A DNA stretch of 47,839 bases from Sulfurovum sp. (GTDB lineage Bacteria; Campylobacterota; Campylobacteria; Campylobacterales; Sulfurovaceae): NCBI GenBank assembly GCA_027063305.1, contig JAMORY010000014.1, forward strand, positions 1-47,839, read 5' to 3'. Under the pieces are notes generated by a model. It saw only the letters and a list, made by a program, of their open reading frames with translations. It did not search any database and was not told the origin of the DNA. Every line of letters starts with the position of its first letter. Position 1 is the first letter of the stretch. Shown here piece by piece: positions 12,168 through 23,645 of this stretch. The position numbers were made by a program, and so were the translations under genes.

Positions 12168-14018
12168 ATGGCAACAAAAGACAGTATGAAACAGATCGAA
12201 GCACTTTTTAAGTCTAAAAAGAAGGGTGATGTTGTTACATTTGAGAACATCGCAAAAGAGTTCACCAAAGCACCTACGGCTGCACAGGCAAAAAAGATCG
12301 CGAAAATGGCGGAAGAGGCGAAAGTAGAGATCATCTCCGCTTCCGAATATGCCAAACACCTCACAGACAAAGAGAGCAAACGTCGTAAAGATGCACGTAA
12401 GCGTGCCGCTGACGGGGAGATAGAGGATGAGTTCGACCTCCATAAGGAGAAAGAGCTTCTTGAGTGGAGCCGCTCAGACTCCCCTGTTCGTATGTACCTG
12501 CGTGAAATGGGTAAGATCCCGCTTTTGACCAAAGAAGAAGAGGTGGAGCTGAGTAAACAGATCGAAGAGGGTGAAGAGATCATTATCGATGCGATCTGTT
12601 CGGTTCCTTACCTCATCGACTATATCCTTAACTACAAAGAGCCGCTGCTTAACCGTGAAAGACGTGTAAAAGAGCTCTTTAAAAGCTTTGAGGATGAAAA
12701 AGGCGACAGTGACAAAGAGGATGCCGATGAGAGTGATGAGAGCGAAGGAAGTGAAAAACCAAAGAACGACAAGCGTGTCAAGCAGGTCGTAGAGAGCTTC
12801 AAACGTCTGGAAAAAGCAAAAAAAGAGTGGATGAAAGCACGTGAGGGCTTGGACGAACTGCTTGCCAATGAGACCGACCCTGTCAAGATCATCCATGAAC
12901 GTTTGAAGATCGCCTTTAAAAAAGAGCAGCTCAAAGCTGCCCTACTTGACCTCGGACCGACATCCAAACTCATCAACGAGCTGGTCAAGGCGATGGAAAC
13001 GGCCCTCAAGAGTGACGACAGTTTCGATAAAGAGCTGAAACGTTTGGAGTACAAACTACCACTCTTTAACGATACGCTCAGAGCCAACCACCAGAAGATC
13101 CTTGATAACATTATCCATATGGATAAAGAAGATATTATCGATGCCGTACCCGAAACAACGATGGTCAGCACCTATGTCGAGATCAAGAAGCTCTTTGAGA
13201 CAAGAGAGGCAAGTAAAGGCGGTTTTGACCTGAGCGAAGAGAAGCTCCAAGAGATTCTTAACCAGATCCGTCAAGGTAAGGCAAAGAGTGAGAAAGCCAA
13301 AACACGTATGGCAAAATCGAACCTCCGTCTGGTCGTCTCTATTGCTAAACGTTACACCAACCGTGGTCTGCCTTTCCTTGACCTCATCCAAGAAGGGAAT
13401 ATCGGTCTAATGAAAGCCGTTGACAAATTCGAGTACGAAAAAGGGTACAAGTTCTCCACCTATGCAACATGGTGGATCCGTCAGGCGATCTCAAGAGCTA
13501 TTGCCGATCAGGCAAGAACCATCCGTATCCCGATCCATATGATCGAGACGATCAACCGCATCAACAAGATCATCCGTAAATACCTCCAAGAGACGGGGAA
13601 AGAGCCCGATCTCGATACGATCGCAAAAGAGGTGGGACTCTCTGTAGATAAAGTCAAGAACGTTATCAAGATCACCAAAGAACCTGTTTCACTTGAGACA
13701 CCGGTGGGTGATGAGGATGACGGAAGATTCGGTGACTTCATTGAGGACAAAACAACACTAAGCCCGACCGATGCAGTACTCAAAGACGACCTCAACAACC
13801 AGATCGATGAAGTGCTCGATCAACTCAATGAAAGAGAGAAAGCGGTCATTCGTATGCGTTTTGGACTGCTTGAAGATGAGAGTGACAGAACACTAGAAGA
13901 GATCGGAAAAGAGCTCAATGTGACCCGTGAACGTGTCAGACAAATAGAGAGTTCCGCGATCAAGAAACTTAAGCATCCTAAGGTAGGACGTAAGCTGAAG
14001 AACTATATAGAAGAGTGA
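12168..14018 (+). CDS. rpoD: RNA polymerase primary sigma factor RpoD (sigma-70)
   Basis: Housekeeping sigma factor. The 616-residue product has an N-terminal region 1.1 (residues 1-80), region 1.2 with '[20 protein letters not shown]' near 104-123, a long acidic non-conserved region containing '[18 protein letters not shown]', region 2 with '[20 protein letters not shown]' and '[20 protein letters not shown]' for -10 recognition and melting, region 3, and region 4 with '[20 protein letters not shown]' near the C-terminus for -35 contact. The Lys/Glu-rich stretch is usual in Campylobacterota RpoD. The short inverted repeat GAGAAGACTCTTCTC just after the stop may act in termination. Confidence 0.97.
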
Positions 14019-14043: not shown

Positions 14044-14124
14044 ACTCGGAGTTCACATTCCGTTCACAATTTTATGTTAGTTTACAAAGAATGGTAGCTT
14101 ATGCTACTTTTTGAAGGGAAGAGA

Positions 14125-14511
14125 ATGGAAAAATTATCTATAGAAGAGACAAAATATACACCCCGCATTATAATGGATGCCGAAAAAGGACTTCTTCAGA
14201 TCAAGGGAAAGTCCTATCCTGAAAATACATTTGAGTTCTACAAGCCTATGATTGAGTGGATCGAAACATACTTTCGATCCCCACAAGTCAAGACGACACT
14301 GCAAATGGAGATCATCTACTTCAACTCCAGTAGTTCCAAATTCTTTTTTGACCTTTTCGATCGTCTAGAAGAATACAGGGAGAGATCGGACATCACAATA
14401 GAGTGGATCTATGACCCTGAGAACGAAAGTGCTTTGGAAGCTGGAGAAGACTTCATTGATGATTTTGAGATGCTTAATATCCAACTTATAGAGAAGTGGA
14501 CCACCTCATGA
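14125..14511 (+). CDS. SiaC-family regulatory phosphoprotein (DUF1987)
   Basis: A 128-residue protein of the family that includes Pseudomonas SiaC, the phosphorylatable switch protein controlled by a SiaB kinase and a SiaA phosphatase. Family features are 'YTPRIIMDAEKGLLQIKGKS' near residues 11-30, 'YPENTFEFYKP' and 'MEIIYFNSSSSKFFFDLFD'. The position matching the SiaC phosphosite I recall (Thr68) is Ser68 here when counted from the second ATG. I prefer that ATG (MEKLSIEE) over the one at 14101 because AAGGGAAGAG precedes it. The stop overlaps the kinase ATG (ATGA), and four genes are tightly linked to 18333, so it belongs to one signalling operon. Confidence 0.85.
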   Translation: MEKLSIEETKYTPRIIMDAEKGLLQIKGKSYPENTFEFYKPMIEWIETYFRSPQVKTTLQMEIIYFNSSSSKFFFDLFDRLEEYRERSDITIEWIYDPENESALEAGEDFIDDFEMLNIQLIEKWTTS

Positions 14512-15479
14512 AATACAATCGCCAATTTGAAGATATCATCAACCGACTCCTTCTTGAAGCCAAGGAGCAAGATGAAATCTCTTTCAAAGAGGATATCCTG
14601 ACCCTATCCGACATATACGCCAAAAAGAACAAACGGCTTGAACGGATCATCAAGCTCTCGGACAAACAGCAAATGGCGATCCTTGAGCTGAACGAAGAAC
14701 TTGATGACTATAAACAGAATCTGGAAAAGCGTGTAGCCGAAGAGATACAGAAACGGCAAGAGCAAGAGGAGCTTCTTATGGAACAGTCTCGTCTGGCAAC
14801 ACTTGCCGAGATGATCGATGCCGTTGCACACCAGTGGACACAACCACTGAACGTACTTGCCACACAGATCGAACTTTTACATATTAACTCGATTAAACAG
14901 CATGCGCTCTCTTCTGATGAGATATGTACGTTCAAAGAGAACGCGACTATGCAGATCATGCATATGAGCAAAACGCTCAGCAGTTTCCGAAACTTCTTCA
15001 AGCCGATGCATGATGCTGTTCCATTCTCAGTAAAAGCCATGATAGAAGATGCTCTTGAACTCATGAAAAACGATCTTCTAAGAGCGAAGATAACCCTTTT
15101 GCTTGAAGTCGAAGAGGACTTTGAACTGATAGGGAACGAAAGTGAGTTCAAACATATCATCATCAACCTCTTAAGTAATGCAAAATATGCATTTGAAGAA
15201 CAAAACATCTCATCACGTAATATCCACATTCGGATATTGGGAGCATCACAACGTTTTGAGGTCATTGACAATGCCGGAGGGATCGCGCCTGATATCATGG
15301 ATACGATCTTTGACCTCCGCAGTTCGACAAAAGGAGAGAAAGGAAGCGGTATTGGGCTCTACATGAGCGCACAGATCGCACAAAAGCACCATGGTGAACT
15401 CTTAGCAGAGAATACCAAAGATGGTGCAAAGTTTACATTCATACTAAAGGATACCCATGATCACCATCAACTCACTTGA
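14508..15479 (+). CDS. Soluble sensor histidine kinase embedded in the Sia-like operon
   Basis: A 323-residue cytoplasmic kinase with no transmembrane segment. An N-terminal part of about 95 residues is largely coiled coil (heptad-rich 'NLEKRVAEEIQKRQEQEELL'). The H-box 'DAVAHQWTQPLNVLATQ' gives the phospho-acceptor His108. The HATPase domain has the N-box 'IIINLLSNAKYAFEE', G1 'DNAGGI' and G2 'KGEKGSGIGLYMSA'. The HQW-QPL type of H-box is common in Campylobacterota kinases. The ATG overlaps the SiaC-like TGA, and its end overlaps the SiaB-like gene by 23 bases. No response regulator is adjacent, so its partner is unknown. It may feed phosphate or a signal into the partner switch, which is inference. 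Confidence 0.88.
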   Translation: MKYNRQFEDIINRLLLEAKEQDEISFKEDILTLSDIYAKKNKRLERIIKLSDKQQMAILELNEELDDYKQNLEKRVAEEIQKRQEQEELLMEQSRLATLAEMIDAVAHQWTQPLNVLATQIELLHINSIKQHALSSDEICTFKENATMQIMHMSKTLSSFRNFFKPMHDAVPFSVKAMIEDALELMKNDLLRAKITLLLEVEEDFELIGNESEFKHIIINLLSNAKYAFEEQNISSRNIHIRILGASQRFEVIDNAGGIAPDIMDTIFDLRSSTKGEKGSGIGLYMSAQIAQKHHGELLAENTKDGAKFTFILKDTHDHHQLT

Positions 15480-15990
15480 ATCGATATTTAACGAAGAGCA
15501 GATCATTTTCTTAACCTATGGGGGGACCTTTACCCAATCGCTTATCGCAGGGATGACAGGTGTTCTGGAAAAAGAGATCGAAGAGGATGAGCTTTCCATG
15601 GCTACATCGAACAATATATTCGTTGTATTCATCGAGCTTGCCCAAAATATCATGAACTATGCAAAAAAGAGAAAGAACAGTCTTCACTTTGATCCTAAAG
15701 GGCTGGTATTTGTCGGGAAAAAAGAGAACCACTACTTCGTATGCGGCCAGAACATCATTACCGAATCCGATAAGACACTGATCGAAGCACGTCTGGAAGA
15801 AGTGACCTCACTTGATAAAGAAGGGCTTAAGAAACGTTATCGAGAGATACGCAGAAGTGGACGCGGGTCACATGACAAAGGAGGAGGACTTGGATTTTAC
15901 GAGATTGCACGTAAAGTTGAGAACCTCGATTTTCGATTTGACAAGATCAGCGATGATCGATACTACTTTAAACTCTGCGCGACTATATAG
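15457..15990 (+). CDS. SiaB-like serine/threonine kinase of a partner-switch module
   Basis: A 177-residue protein resembling SiaB, the kinase that phosphorylates SiaC. It has a GHKL-like ATPase pattern: N-box 'VVFIELAQNIMNYAKKR' near residues 52-68 and a Gly-rich lid 'GRGSHDKGGGLGFYEIARK' near 130-148. It is followed without a gap by the phosphatase gene (TAG then ATG). By analogy it would phosphorylate the SiaC-like protein, and the SpoIIE-type enzyme would reverse this. The family assignment is from pattern recognition and is not confirmed by alignment. Confidence 0.8.
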   Translation: MITINSLESIFNEEQIIFLTYGGTFTQSLIAGMTGVLEKEIEEDELSMATSNNIFVVFIELAQNIMNYAKKRKNSLHFDPKGLVFVGKKENHYFVCGQNIITESDKTLIEARLEEVTSLDKEGLKKRYREIRRSGRGSHDKGGGLGFYEIARKVENLDFRFDKISDDRYYFKLCATI

Positions 15991-18333
15991 ATGAGCAGAC
16001 TCTTTCGTATCTTTCTTCTTCTTTTCTTACTCCTAAGCATAGGATCTGCCAATATCAAGGTCTCTTATGACCCTAACTATGCCCCATACTCTTATAATGT
16101 CAAAGGGGAGCCCTATGGTCTCTTTATCGACATCTGGCGATATTATGCAAAAGAGAACAATGAGACAGTCACCTTCATAGCGGGAAAGAACTGGGATGAT
16201 GCGATCACTTTAGTCAAAGAGCAAAAGGTCGACTACTTCTTAGGAACCACCCCTTATGAACCATGGATGAAAGCAAGCTACCCCTTCTACCAGACAAAAA
16301 CCTCTTTTTTCATACGTAAAGGGTACCAAGAGAAGATCACACACGTCGGGATCGTCGGAGATGACTATAAAGAAGAACTACGCCATTATGATCCTGATCT
16401 CAATATCACAAGCTACATCGATTATGACTCTTTGGTAGATGCCCTTCTTTCTCAAAAGGTTGATGCGATCTATGATGATATGGCACCACTCTCATACTAT
16501 GCCATCTCTCACCATCAACAGCATCTCATGCAACGCTCTTCCCTACTCTCAAAAGCATCGGATGTTGATGCGATTACAACTTCCAAGCAAAAGAAAGAGA
16601 GGTTCAACAGAGGTTTCCAAAGGCTTTCACCCAAACATCTCCTAGAGATCGAAAAACGCTGGATATATGAAAAGAGTGAGCGCTATTATGAGAGTGGTCA
16701 ACCTATTACATCCATCTCTTACGTCTATGACTCGGACTGGAGACCTTTTGAGTGGAAAGATGAGATGCGAAAAGCACATCTGGGGATCATTTCTGATATT
16801 CTTGCGATCATTTCCCAAAAAACAGAGATCGACTTCATCCCTGTCCCTACTGAGAATTGGGAAGAGTCTGTCCAGCTTGTCAAAAAAGGGAAGGCCGATA
16901 TGTTCAGTGCCGTTCCCGTAACACAAGCACGTCAAAAATATCTCAATTTCACTCAACACAGTATCTATAGCTATCCTGCCGTTCTTGTCTCTCATATCGA
17001 CAGTGAATTTAGCTTGGATACGGATTTCCAAAGAAAACGGATCGGTATTGTCAAAGGGAACTCTTTAGGTGACTGGATCAAAGCACACTACCCTCATGCG
17101 GAATTTGTCTTTTATGAAACAGTGCAAGAGGGCTTTCAAGCCATTGAAGAGGGGGAGATCGACTTCTTTGGTATCAATGGGGTCACAGCACTCTACTATA
17201 TTAATATTCTAGGATTTGACCAAGCTAAGGTTCTGACCAAAATGGACTATATGTTCCACTTGAAGATCGCTCTGCGAAAAGAGGTGCCCAAAGCAATACT
17301 CAACCGTATCGACGAAGCACTCGCAACCATTTCTAACAGAGAGCGTAACGATATCTATCGGAAATGGACCTCTATCAAGATCCAAAAAGAGATGGATTGG
17401 CGACTACTTGCAGGGATCCTTCTTACCGCTCTTTTGATCTTCGTGATATTCTGGCTTGTCAACCGCCATCTTAAAAAACTCGTTGATGAAAAGACAAAAG
17501 CGCTTAGACTGCTGAATGAGAGCCTTGAGGAGAAGGTAGAAGAGCGTACCGAAGCACTTGCACGCATCAACCGTCATATGCAAGACTCCATCACCTATGC
17601 CGCACTCATACAAAATACCATACTCCCTCCACAAGAGGAGCTAGGTGATTTTTTCAGTGACCATTTTGTGATATGGGAACCCAAAGATATTGTCGGAGGG
17701 GATATCTATTTCTTCCATACGATCAACGATACACAAGCGCTTCTCTATGTGATCGACTGTACAGGTCACGGTGTATCGGGAGCCTTTGTAACCATGTTGG
17801 CCAAAGCAATCGAAGCACAAGTGGCATCTCAACCCGATATCCTCCACTCACCATCAAAAATACTAAGCTACTTCAACCGTACGCTCAAAACCCTGCTCAA
17901 ACAGGAATCTGCCGATGCGAATGTCGGAATGGATGCAGGTGTCGTACATATTCACAAAACCAAACAGGTACTCACCTTTAGCGGTGCAAACATCGACCTC
18001 TTCTATACGGATGTAACTGAGATCAAAAAACTCAAAAAGGATCGCTACTCTATCGGGTACAAACAGTGCCATGATGACTATCAGTATAGCGAGCATACGC
18101 TACAGTATGCAGAGGGAACGACCTTCTACCTCTCTACTGATGGTTATATCGACCAAAATGGTGGAGAGAAAGGTTTTCCAATGGGAAGAAAACGATTCAT
18201 AAGGCTACTGCAACACGCCCTCTCACTCCCGCTCCATGAGCAAAAGAACGCACTTCTTCAAGCACTGAAGCGCTATCAGGGAGATGAGGAACGAAATGAC
18301 GATATAACCGTAATAGGGTTCAAGCTCCCATAA
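15991..18333 (+). CDS. Sensor phosphatase: two periplasmic binding domains, one TM helix, SpoIIE-type PP2C
   Basis: A 780-residue membrane receptor. A signal peptide (residues 1-20) leads into two type-3 solute-binding (PBPb/SBP_bac_3) domains at about 21-235 and 241-462 in the periplasm. 'LLAGILLTALLIFVIFWLV' (about 472-490) is the single inner transmembrane helix, followed by a short coiled coil (about 492-530). The cytoplasmic SpoIIE/PP2C phosphatase covers about 545-780; metal-binding aspartates are visible in 'DIVGGD' (Asp571), 'VIDCTGHG' (Asp589), 'LSTDGYID' (Asp717) and 'RNDDITVI' (Asp771). All are intact, so it should be active. This is the SiaA-equivalent of the operon, but the sensor differs from the HAMP-linked SiaA of Pseudomonas. 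Ligand unknown; type-3 domains usually bind amino acids or other small polar molecules. Confidence 0.9.
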   Translation: MSRLFRIFLLLFLLLSIGSANIKVSYDPNYAPYSYNVKGEPYGLFIDIWRYYAKENNETVTFIAGKNWDDAITLVKEQKVDYFLGTTPYEPWMKASYPFYQTKTSFFIRKGYQEKITHVGIVGDDYKEELRHYDPDLNITSYIDYDSLVDALLSQKVDAIYDDMAPLSYYAISHHQQHLMQRSSLLSKASDVDAITTSKQKKERFNRGFQRLSPKHLLEIEKRWIYEKSERYYESGQPITSISYVYDSDWRPFEWKDEMRKAHLGIISDILAIISQKTEIDFIPVPTENWEESVQLVKKGKADMFSAVPVTQARQKYLNFTQHSIYSYPAVLVSHIDSEFSLDTDFQRKRIGIVKGNSLGDWIKAHYPHAEFVFYETVQEGFQAIEEGEIDFFGINGVTALYYINILGFDQAKVLTKMDYMFHLKIALRKEVPKAILNRIDEALATISNRERNDIYRKWTSIKIQKEMDWRLLAGILLTALLIFVIFWLVNRHLKKLVDEKTKALRLLNESLEEKVEERTEALARINRHMQDSITYAALIQNTILPPQEELGDFFSDHFVIWEPKDIVGGDIYFFHTINDTQALLYVIDCTGHGVSGAFVTMLAKAIEAQVASQPDILHSPSKILSYFNRTLKTLLKQESADANVGMDAGVVHIHKTKQVLTFSGANIDLFYTDVTEIKKLKKDRYSIGYKQCHDDYQYSEHTLQYAEGTTFYLSTDGYIDQNGGEKGFPMGRKRFIRLLQHALSLPLHEQKNALLQALKRYQGDEERNDDITVIGFKLP

Positions 18334-21622: not shown

Positions 21623-22393
21623 TTAAATCTCCAATTCCCTCTGGCGATTATCCAAATATCGGTTTACACCCTCAACGATCCCTTCTGCAATACGTTCTTG
21701 GTAGTCTTCGTCAAAGAGACGTTTACGCTCTTTGGGATTGGTGATATAGCCGACTTCGACTAGAATGGAAGGGCGGCTCGCACCTACAAGCACATAAAAA
21801 GGTGCAGGCCGCACACCGCCGTCTTTGGCATCGGGGTACTTACCTTTAACACGCTTCATAATGTTACGTTGCACATCGATCGCAAGCTTATTACTCTCTA
21901 TGATCTTAGGACCGTTCAATACCGAATCGATAATGACATCTTGACTTAAGGCATCCGTTCCTTGCAGTACCGAAGCATTCTCACGTGCGGCGATCTTCTG
22001 TGATTTGGCATCACGTGTCTTTTGCAGGAAATAGGTTTCTATCCCCTCTACAATATCAAAGCGTTCTTTATTGGCAATAGCATTGGCATGAATGGAGATG
22101 AATACGTCGGCATCTTTTTTATCTGCGATACGCGTACGCTGTCCCAGTGTCAAGAAGCGGTCATTTCTTCGTGTAAGATAGACACGGTACCCTTCGCTTC
22201 TAAATTCTTTGGCTACCTTTTTTGCGATCTGCAACACGGCATCTTTCTCCAGCTGCCCTTTGCATTTAGCGCCACAATCAAGCCCACCATGCCCCGCATC
22301 GATCACGACAAGACGTGATGAACGATCCGGTCCCATACATGCACTCAAGAGGAAAAGTGCCACAAGCACCACCCCTTTAAAAATCATACTCAT
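21623..22393 (-). CDS. N-acetylmuramoyl-L-alanine amidase (Amidase_3), lipoprotein
   Basis: A zinc amidase that cuts the amide bond between MurNAc and the stem peptide. The 256-residue product is mature right after the lipobox, FLLSAC near residues 14-19, so it is membrane-anchored and has no AMIN domain. Zinc and catalytic motifs are 'VVIDAGHGGLDCGAKC', 'FISIHANA' and 'ILVEVGYITNPKERKRLF'. The Amidase_3 domain is very similar to that of the adjacent upstream gene, indicating tandem duplication. The insert 'ENASVLQGTDALSQDVIID' lies where family members carry the autoinhibitory helix. The start may be the first or third residue; a GGGGGGAGT tract precedes it. Confidence 0.92.
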   Translation of the reverse strand: MSMIFKGVVLVALFLLSACMGPDRSSRLVVIDAGHGGLDCGAKCKGQLEKDAVLQIAKKVAKEFRSEGYRVYLTRRNDRFLTLGQRTRIADKKDADVFISIHANAIANKERFDIVEGIETYFLQKTRDAKSQKIAARENASVLQGTDALSQDVIIDSVLNGPKIIESNKLAIDVQRNIMKRVKGKYPDAKDGGVRPAPFYVLVGASRPSILVEVGYITNPKERKRLFDEDYQERIAEGIVEGVNRYLDNRQRELEI

Positions 22394-22412: not shown

Positions 22413-23645
22413 TTAAAGTTCTATCTCTTTTTTACGGTTGTTCAAATAGCACTGTATCCCCTCGGCGATCCCTTTGGCGATCTGTTCTTGGTAACGTCTA
22501 CTAAAGAGTCTTTTCCTCTCTTTAGGATGCGAGATATACCCTACCTCTACCAGAATAGAAGGACGGCTCGCACCAACCAATACCCAAAAAGGGGCATGAC
22601 GAACACCACCATCTTTAACACCTTTATAATGAGCACGTAAATTCGCCATGATCCGCCGTTGCACATCGATCGCCAATTTATTACTCTCGATGATCTTAGG
22701 GCCGTTCAAGACCGAATCGACAATGACCTTTTTACTCAAGGAGGTTCCCGCCCCCTTCAGTACCGCTGCATTCTCTCTGGCAGCAATACGTTGTGACTTC
22801 GCATCACGTGTCTTTTGTAAAAAGAAGGTCTCAACACCGTGCACTTTATAGCGCTTACGTTTAGGTACGGAGTTTGCATGGATCGAAATAAAGACTTTTG
22901 CATCTTTCCTATCGGCAATATGTGTACGCTGAGGGAGCTTTAAGAACTTATCACTTCGTCTTGTCAGATAAACACGATATCCTCGCTTCTTCAGCTCTTT
23001 TTCCACCTTTTTGGCAATTTGCAGAACCAGATCTTTCTCTTTCTTTCCTCCGGCAACAGCACCGCTGTCATGACCGCCGTGCCCCGCATCGATCACGATC
23101 ACCTCACCCGTTCCTCTTGCATAGATATTTTTAGATGCAGGCATGACCCTAGCGCGTTTAACCCCTGCGGGTTTCTTTTGGGTATGCTGATGTCTTTTAT
23201 GAGAGACTGCTACGGGTGTCTTCTTCTTTTTTGGCTTTGAAGAGGTAACGGGAATCGGTTTCACCTTGAAAGGCGGAAGCGGGATATGGTAGGCATTATA
23301 GGCAAAAAGCGGACGGTAAGGGTTACAGCCATACCCTTTCCCTGTCTCCAAAACGACACGAACCGTATTTTTCTTATATTGTGATATACGTATAGAGCGG
23401 CAATGGGAGCTCTTTAGCCCTTTTGCGATGTTACTGCGTTTCACTCTTGCATCAGGAATATCGAATACTTCACGGTAGGGATGCGTCAGTGCAAAGTGCT
23501 TGATCTTACTTTTGTTGTAAGCTTTATCGAAGTGTAGGCGCAGTTCACCCCTTTTGATCTCCGCTTTTTCCAAAACGGCAATGGATGCCAAGAGCATCGT
23601 GCTGCCAAGAAGCAGCCACAAAATCAAAAGTTTCATGAACCTCAC
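22413..23645 (-). CDS. N-acetylmuramoyl-L-alanine amidase with AMIN domain (AmiC-like)
   Basis: A 410-residue periplasmic amidase. A signal peptide is followed by an AMIN-type domain (residues about 25-125), a Lys/Pro-rich linker (about 128-175), then an Amidase_3 domain. The latter has 'VIVIDAGHGGHDSGAVAGG' near 182-200, 'FISIHANSV' and 'ILVEVGYISHPKERKRLF'. AMIN domains target AmiB/AmiC to the division site. The start is GTG at 23645 or the ATG three codons later. It begins right after the nitronate monooxygenase stop codon, and the lipoprotein amidase follows after 19 bases, so the three are an operon. Confidence 0.93.
   Translation of the reverse strand: MRFMKLLILWLLLGSTMLLASIAVLEKAEIKRGELRLHFDKAYNKSKIKHFALTHPYREVFDIPDARVKRSNIAKGLKSSHCRSIRISQYKKNTVRVVLETGKGYGCNPYRPLFAYNAYHIPLPPFKVKPIPVTSSKPKKKKTPVAVSHKRHQHTQKKPAGVKRARVMPASKNIYARGTGEVIVIDAGHGGHDSGAVAGGKKEKDLVLQIAKKVEKELKKRGYRVYLTRRSDKFLKLPQRTHIADRKDAKVFISIHANSVPKRKRYKVHGVETFFLQKTRDAKSQRIAARENAAVLKGAGTSLSKKVIVDSVLNGPKIIESNKLAIDVQRRIMANLRAHYKGVKDGGVRHAPFWVLVGASRPSILVEVGYISHPKERKRLFSRRYQEQIAKGIAEGIQCYLNNRKKEIEL

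Follow-up and report, generated by a model that had tools for sequence, protein, structure and literature searches.

Which enzyme does a SiaC-family switch protein control where no diguanylate cyclase is encoded beside it? The question is raised by a four-gene operon of a Sulfurovum sp. (assembly GCA_027063305.1, contig JAMORY010000014.1), which occupies positions 14125-18333 on the forward strand of the 47,839-nucleotide stretch that we analysed (the window). Its genes encode, in order, a SiaC-family protein, a soluble histidine kinase (HK), a SiaB-family kinase and a SiaA-like phosphatase. A sequence-only reading of this DNA had described the HK as inserted between the switch protein and its kinase, and had left the output of the switch open. 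The position of the HK is as described. The HK is no mere insertion, however: the stalk on which SiaC docks in SiaD, the diguanylate cyclase under its control in Pseudomonas aeruginosa, is also present in this protein. Because of this stalk, sequence comparison indicates that the HK very probably takes the place of SiaD as the SiaC-controlled enzyme, and that the switch very likely has the HK as its output.

A predicted SiaC-docking stalk on the histidine kinase

SiaD of P. aeruginosa has a long helical stalk with two similar motifs, to which SiaC binds when unphosphorylated. T68 of SiaC enters between the helices of the stalk, beside SiaD S82 and Q86, and binding is blocked once T68 is phosphorylated (PMC8457831). 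The HK of the Sulfurovum operon has a HATPase_c domain (57.6 bits), an H-box (HQWTQPLN) and a catalytic histidine, His108 (14829-14831), and its boxes (H108, N220/N224, D254, G258 and G279/G281/G283) are conserved in an alignment of HKs (A4); no sensor domain of its own was recognised. The predicted stalk comprises residues 40-66, starting RLERIIKLSDKQQ, with the core R43-x3-I47-x3-S51-D52-x-Q54-Q55. Residues 43-55 satisfy the motif [RK]xx[RK][ILVM]xxx[SGAN]DxxQ on the N-terminal helix that enters the catalytic domain. The earlier suggestion of a link to two-component signalling is supported.

A comparison of the N-terminal third of the HK with all PDB sequences placed SiaD (7e6g) among six weak matches (E=0.09). 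In the gapless alignment of the two proteins (NKRLERIIKLSDKQQMAILELNEEL in the HK, LRRLEKVARISDRYQQMMRDLNLAL in 7e6g), SiaD R74/K77/V78/R80/I81/S82/D83/R84/Q86 correspond in register to HK R43/R46/I47/K49/L50/S51/D52/K53/Q55. The charged or polar stalk contacts of SiaD from R74 to Q86 named in PMC8457831 are all kept or conservatively replaced, Y85 excepted. We further built a profile from 16 stalks of SiaC-neighbour proteins, with no Pseudomonas sequence among them, and searched 177,635 PDB sequences; its sole significant match was 7e6g (E=2.4e-4), and the match reached into both SiaC-binding motifs. Across 11 HKs, down to 23% identity, R43, I47, S51, D52, Q54 and Q55 are invariant together with the catalytic residues, whereas the sequence N-terminal to the motif is not conserved (A4). 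An AlphaFold2 (AF2) model of the HK (mean pLDDT 82) has a short helix at residues 2-20, followed by one continuous helix from 24 to 131 that runs through both the motif and His108.

The other side of the predicted contact is the SiaC-like protein, encoded by the single SiaC-family gene of this genome. Its predicted phosphoacceptor, Ser68 (14326-14328), lies within YFNSSSS and fits the context Y-x-N-[ST]-S; position 68 is Ser in 102/102 homologues, and Tyr65 and Asn67 are likewise present in 102/102. The residues that contact SiaD are retained at Y65, N67, S68 (for T68), S69, D79, D109 and D113.

This genome has 28 HATPase domains and 20 GGDEF hits, yet the stalk was found on the HK alone, and none of the GGDEF proteins carries it. 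This bears on a different role for the HK, as a second input that tunes, or phosphorylates, the SiaB/SiaA pair while the true SiaC target is encoded elsewhere in the genome. Such an upstream role would suit the tight coupling of the HK gene between siaC and siaB and the lack of a response regulator linked to the operon. It is most unlikely, however, given that the HK bears a stalk found on no other protein of the genome and has no recognised sensor domain, and that other loci have, at its gene position, HD-GYP or GGDEF enzymes bearing this stalk.

Stalk and SiaC across genomes

SiaC above cut-off has a patchy distribution, occurring in 21/397 Campylobacterota genomes, and most sampled genomes of the window's genus are without it. 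HK-like stalks (A2) were found in 11/21 SiaC-positive genomes and 2/376 SiaC-negative ones, and HD-GYP-type stalks (A3) in 13 SiaC-positive genomes and in none of the SiaC-negative. At least one of the two is present in 17/21 SiaC-positive genomes as compared with 2/376 (Fisher p=3e-24, which is overstated, related loci not being independent). The way in which the profiles were built flatters their sensitivity, not the near-absence of matches from SiaC-negative genomes. Both exceptions in the latter group are marginal: a 38-residue frame containing a stop in G241, and a 25-residue match in a hybrid sensor kinase of G343. The G343 stretch (L142) lies within a flytrap hybrid sensor kinase and may be a remnant or a coincidence.

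The regular expression derived from the SiaD contacts served as a separate test, applied to 80 named loci that had been retrieved by SiaC alone from Campylobacterota, Gammaproteobacteria, Mariprofundaceae, SAR324, Nitrospirota and others. The strict motif occurs in 50/87 (57%) of the genes adjacent to SiaC, in 12/130 of those two genes away, in 3/231 at three to four genes and in 0/309 at five to eight. Three matches that counted as distant come from Marinobacterium loci in which open reading frame calling had missed SiaC, and the stalk gene actually adjoins it. By locus, a motif gene lies within four genes of SiaC in 59/76 cases with the strict pattern and 65/76 with a relaxed one. Variants of the motif were seen by eye in loci scored as negative (an HK in L129, HD-GYP proteins in L103 and L122). 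A chance origin of the motif was rejected on this clustering beside SiaC together with its frequency in shuffled sequences (4/4000 trials).

These counts also address whether the likeness to SiaD is a generic feature of coiled-coil linkers, with no relation to SiaC binding. The motif is short and helical, and a similar 25-residue stretch does occur once in the hybrid HK of G343, a genome without SiaC. A generic linker would nevertheless leave a good deal unaccounted for: the co-occurrence (17/21 against 2/376), the tight clustering beside SiaC, the identity of the conserved residues with those touching SiaC in 7e6g, the sharing of one motif by unrelated output domains and its rarity after shuffling. 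We consider it very unlikely.

The proteins that bear the stalk differ widely in what follows it. By phmmer against seeds and sequence reading, rather than curated profiles, the fused outputs are HKs, HD-GYP proteins, a longer HD family, a PAS-GGDEF cyclase, a class III nucleotide cyclase and CheA-like HATPase proteins. Between the motif and the active site, a continuous coiled coil demands steps of exactly seven, and the spacing is mostly quantised in heptads. Most HQW-type HKs have 57 residues from the motif Ser to the catalytic His, and L113 has 50; HKs of another type have 46 or 53. For HD-GYP proteins the spacing, measured to the HD motif, is 75, 82 or 89, whereas the stalk motif itself lies anywhere from residue 37 to 107. 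The long HD family, at 94 and 91, is an exception.

At some loci one SiaC is accompanied by at least two stalk proteins. Four Campylobacterota loci (L034, L036, L042 and L111) combine a single SiaC with a stalked HK, a stalked HD-GYP protein and a stand-alone receiver protein, which may be the partner of the HK, and in L113 one SiaC is accompanied by a GGDEF protein and an HK, both stalked. Multiplicity of this kind would fit an arrangement in which the HK is one of several outputs of the Sulfurovum SiaC, with docking both on the HK and on a protein that lacks the stalk (an anti-sigma factor or a diguanylate cyclase, for instance). This genome, by contrast, has one stalk protein and no second SiaC, and we judge the arrangement very unlikely here. 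More broadly, the recurrence of one stalk motif on HKs, HD-GYP and other HD proteins, GGDEF and class III cyclases and CheA-like kinases, in Campylobacterota, Pseudomonadota and some Nitrospirota, makes it likely that SiaC is a general plug-in regulator, through which a Ser switch would gate phosphorelay, the synthesis and breakdown of cyclic di-GMP (c-di-GMP) and other outputs, sometimes several per SiaC. Separately, SiaC clusters of SAR324 and others (L110, L117, L120 and L123) contain two SiaB-like kinases together with divergent HD-type and HK-type stalk proteins.

Several observations weigh against the HK as the target of SiaC. SiaD Y85 is replaced by Gln in the HK, which shows one recognisable docking motif where SiaD has two. 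On the SiaC side, several contacts are changed (Q10K, D29K, I71S, R103S and L107A), although such changes are the rule within this SiaC group. Four SiaC-positive genomes gave no stalk match. In L061 the HK has 18 extra residues, a number not divisible by seven, which makes its spacing 75. Some of the sequences behind the stalk profiles came from SiaC-adjacent genes of the same genomes, and the related loci are not independent, so that p-values are overstated. Finally, no cognate response regulator emerged for the HK: of 36 receiver hits in this genome, none is operon-linked and no orphan is prominent. On balance, we regard a SiaABC-type partner switch with the HK as its controlled enzyme, gated by docking on the stalk, as highly probable.

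The operon, its sensor phosphatase and its surroundings

The four genes form one tight operon (Table 1). The boundaries given by the sequence-only reading all hold, as do the junctions: an ATGA overlap between siaC-like and HK genes (14508-14511), a 23-base overlap of the siaB-like start with the 3' end of the HK gene, and a gap of zero between the siaB-like and siaA-like genes. No diguanylate cyclase had been seen nearby, and a GGDEF gene is in fact absent from the whole contig that carries the window. The four-gene order recurs in other Campylobacterota loci, and the operon is therefore not a product of chance. SiaC-HK-SiaB-SiaA with flytraps is found in L052, L054 and L057/L059, and SiaC-HK-SiaB in L053, in agreement with the proposal that the HK is conserved with the other three. 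The closest named relative is L052, from a Sulfurovum metagenome-assembled genome (SiaC identity 70%), which seems to be one genome with the same-genus entry G316, as their gene maps are identical. Wherever flanks are present, the genes flanking these loci differ. Given this recurrence with differing flanks, and the absence of SiaC from most members of the genus, the data suggest that SiaC-HK-SiaB-SiaA is a module gained and lost as a unit. A SiaC tree was too short for most forks to be resolved, and SiaCs of the HK type form no single clear clade.

Profile searches place the 128- and 177-residue proteins where the sequence-only reading had placed them. The former matches SiaC family PF09345 with 140.6 bits (cut-off 24.5) and PDB SiaC (6kko/6k4f) with E=1e-19 in a sequence search, and the latter matches the SiaB_fam_kinase model NF038262 with 146 bits (cut-off 85), as well as DUF6272 and PDB SiaB (6kko_A, E=1.3e-16). 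The Pseudomonas equivalog cut-offs of NCBIfam are missed by all three switch proteins (SiaC 115/150, SiaB 87/225, SiaA 270/700); by these scores they are therefore family members rather than strict SiaA/B/C orthologues.

The SiaA-like protein is a BvgS-like tandem flytrap sensor joined to a SiaA-type phosphatase. As had been noticed from its translation, it has two solute-binding stretches (SBP_bac_3 in Pfam) and no HAMP domain. An N-terminal signal or membrane segment precedes the flytraps, which are followed by one membrane helix (residues ~472-490, hydropathy peak 2.93), a predicted helical linker and the PP2C domain (SpoIIE, 76.9 bits). The C-terminal part scores 270 bits with the SiaA model NF038263. 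The AF2 model is of moderate quality (mean pLDDT 69) and contains a helix at 470-539, of low confidence in that part. With Foldseek, the sensor part matched GlnPQ SBD1-SBD2, BvgS (4q0c, E=4e-25) and EvgS (9ilw, E=8e-22), and the catalytic domain matched SiaA-PP2C of P. aeruginosa (6k4e, TMt 0.81, 38% identity). The GGD, DCTGHG, TDG and DDIT motifs of the catalytic domain are invariant across 5 orthologues. Amino acids, suggested along with nutrients by the sequence-only reading, are a possible ligand of the flytraps. Elsewhere, a 1590-residue protein (L065, 3600-8372) matches SiaB, SpoIIE phosphatase and flytraps, apparently uniting kinase and phosphatase in a single chain.

Table 1. Features of the operon and its upstream region (positions in the window)
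Feature	Position	Strand	Evidence or remark
RNA polymerase sigma-factor-like gene	12168-14018		ends 106 bases before siaC-like gene
Exact direct repeat GTTCACA-N4-GTTCACA, ~57 bases upstream of siaC	14051-14068	+	candidate regulator site
siaC-like, SiaC-family switch protein, 128 aa	14125-14511	+	PF09345 140.6 bits
Soluble HK, 323 aa, predicted SiaC target/output	14508-15479	+	HATPase_c 57.6 bits
Predicted SiaC-docking stalk of HK, residues 40-66	14625-14705	+	register match to 7e6g SiaD
siaB-like, SiaB-family Ser/Thr switch kinase, 177 aa	15457-15990	+	NF038262 146 bits
siaA-like, SiaA-like sensor phosphatase, 780 aa	15991-18333	+	SBP_bac_3 x2 + SpoIIE
Tandem periplasmic flytrap (SBP_bac_3) domains of SiaA-like protein, residues ~19-460	16045-17370	+	Pfam, Foldseek
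Transmembrane helix of SiaA-like protein, residues ~472-490, then predicted helical linker	17404-17460	+	hydropathy
PP2C/SpoIIE phosphatase domain, SiaA type	17728-18324	+	SpoIIE 76.9 bits, Foldseek 6k4e

The direct repeat upstream of siaC resembles an OmpR-type tandem site. As a regulon box it was set aside: it is the sole exact copy in the genome, related operons show no conserved counterpart upstream, and near matches are no more frequent than those to a control pattern. Further along the window, two adjoining and clearly related genes on the reverse strand (21623-22393 and 22413-23645), named by sequence reading, resemble N-acetylmuramoyl-L-alanine amidase genes, one of them a short lipoprotein-like copy.

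Proposed mechanism and comparison with known systems

These data allow us to propose a mechanism. The SiaA-like membrane phosphatase would sense a periplasmic solute via its two BvgS-like flytraps and, once active, dephosphorylate SiaC at Ser68, opposed by the SiaB-like kinase, which would phosphorylate the same residue. Unphosphorylated SiaC would dock on residues 40-66 of the HK with SiaD-type contacts, and phospho-SiaC would release. Because the stalk is continuous with the DHp helix carrying His108, docking would be expected to fix the dimeric coiled coil and shift the balance between the kinase and phosphatase activities of the HK; by analogy with SiaD, we infer that the effect of SiaC is activation. 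A response regulator whose gene lies elsewhere would then receive phosphate from the HK.

Bacterial signalling by Ser/Thr partner switching is commonly treated apart from the His-Asp phosphorelay. Here the point at which the two meet is predicted to the residue, SiaC Ser68 against HK Ser51/Gln55. If this holds, SiaC-family proteins without an assigned function would gain predictable targets, namely a neighbouring or distant stalk carrier, and the movement of a short helix would rewire one switch protein to outputs of opposite sense (c-di-GMP synthesis or breakdown) or to a phosphorelay. A SiaC-type domain has been proposed to modulate adjacent proteins (eLife 2021), an idea to which our finding supplies a docking rule and kinds of target. 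In the literature searched, which included few subscription papers and no preprints, we found no description of SiaC control of an HK, or of SiaC targets beyond SiaD.

The closest system is SiaABCD of P. aeruginosa (6kko, 6k4e, 7e6g; PMC8457831, PMC7647112), with which the operon shares the SiaC and SiaB families, a SiaA-type PP2C phosphatase, the arrangement in one operon, a phosphoacceptor at position 68 and a target enzyme whose helical stalk bears the SiaC-binding motif. It differs in its predicted target (an HK rather than the diguanylate cyclase SiaD), in Ser68 for Thr68, in having one docking motif where SiaD has two, in a tandem-flytrap sensor without HAMP and in scores under the Pseudomonas equivalog cut-offs. 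Tandem periplasmic flytraps, a membrane helix and a helical linker also occur in BvgS and EvgS; here, however, the flytraps are on a PP2C phosphatase and not on a histidine kinase, and the HK is separate, soluble and predicted to be reached via SiaC. In HsbA-HsbD and BgrV-BgrR, STAS or STAS-like proteins likewise control a signalling enzyme by phosphorylation-dependent binding, although the protein families differ and the targets are diguanylate cyclases (PMC8457831). A precedent in principle is the RsbT-RsbU N-terminal module of Bacillus subtilis, in which a switch protein binds a helical linker fused to exchangeable outputs; RsbU-type N-domains are also found on HKs (in rsbT operons and Moorella MtG) and on cyclases (PMC12143880). 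The docking domains are unrelated, and no RsbU N-domain was recognised in our HK; the binder is the kinase RsbT in that system, whereas here it would be the STAS-like protein SiaC.

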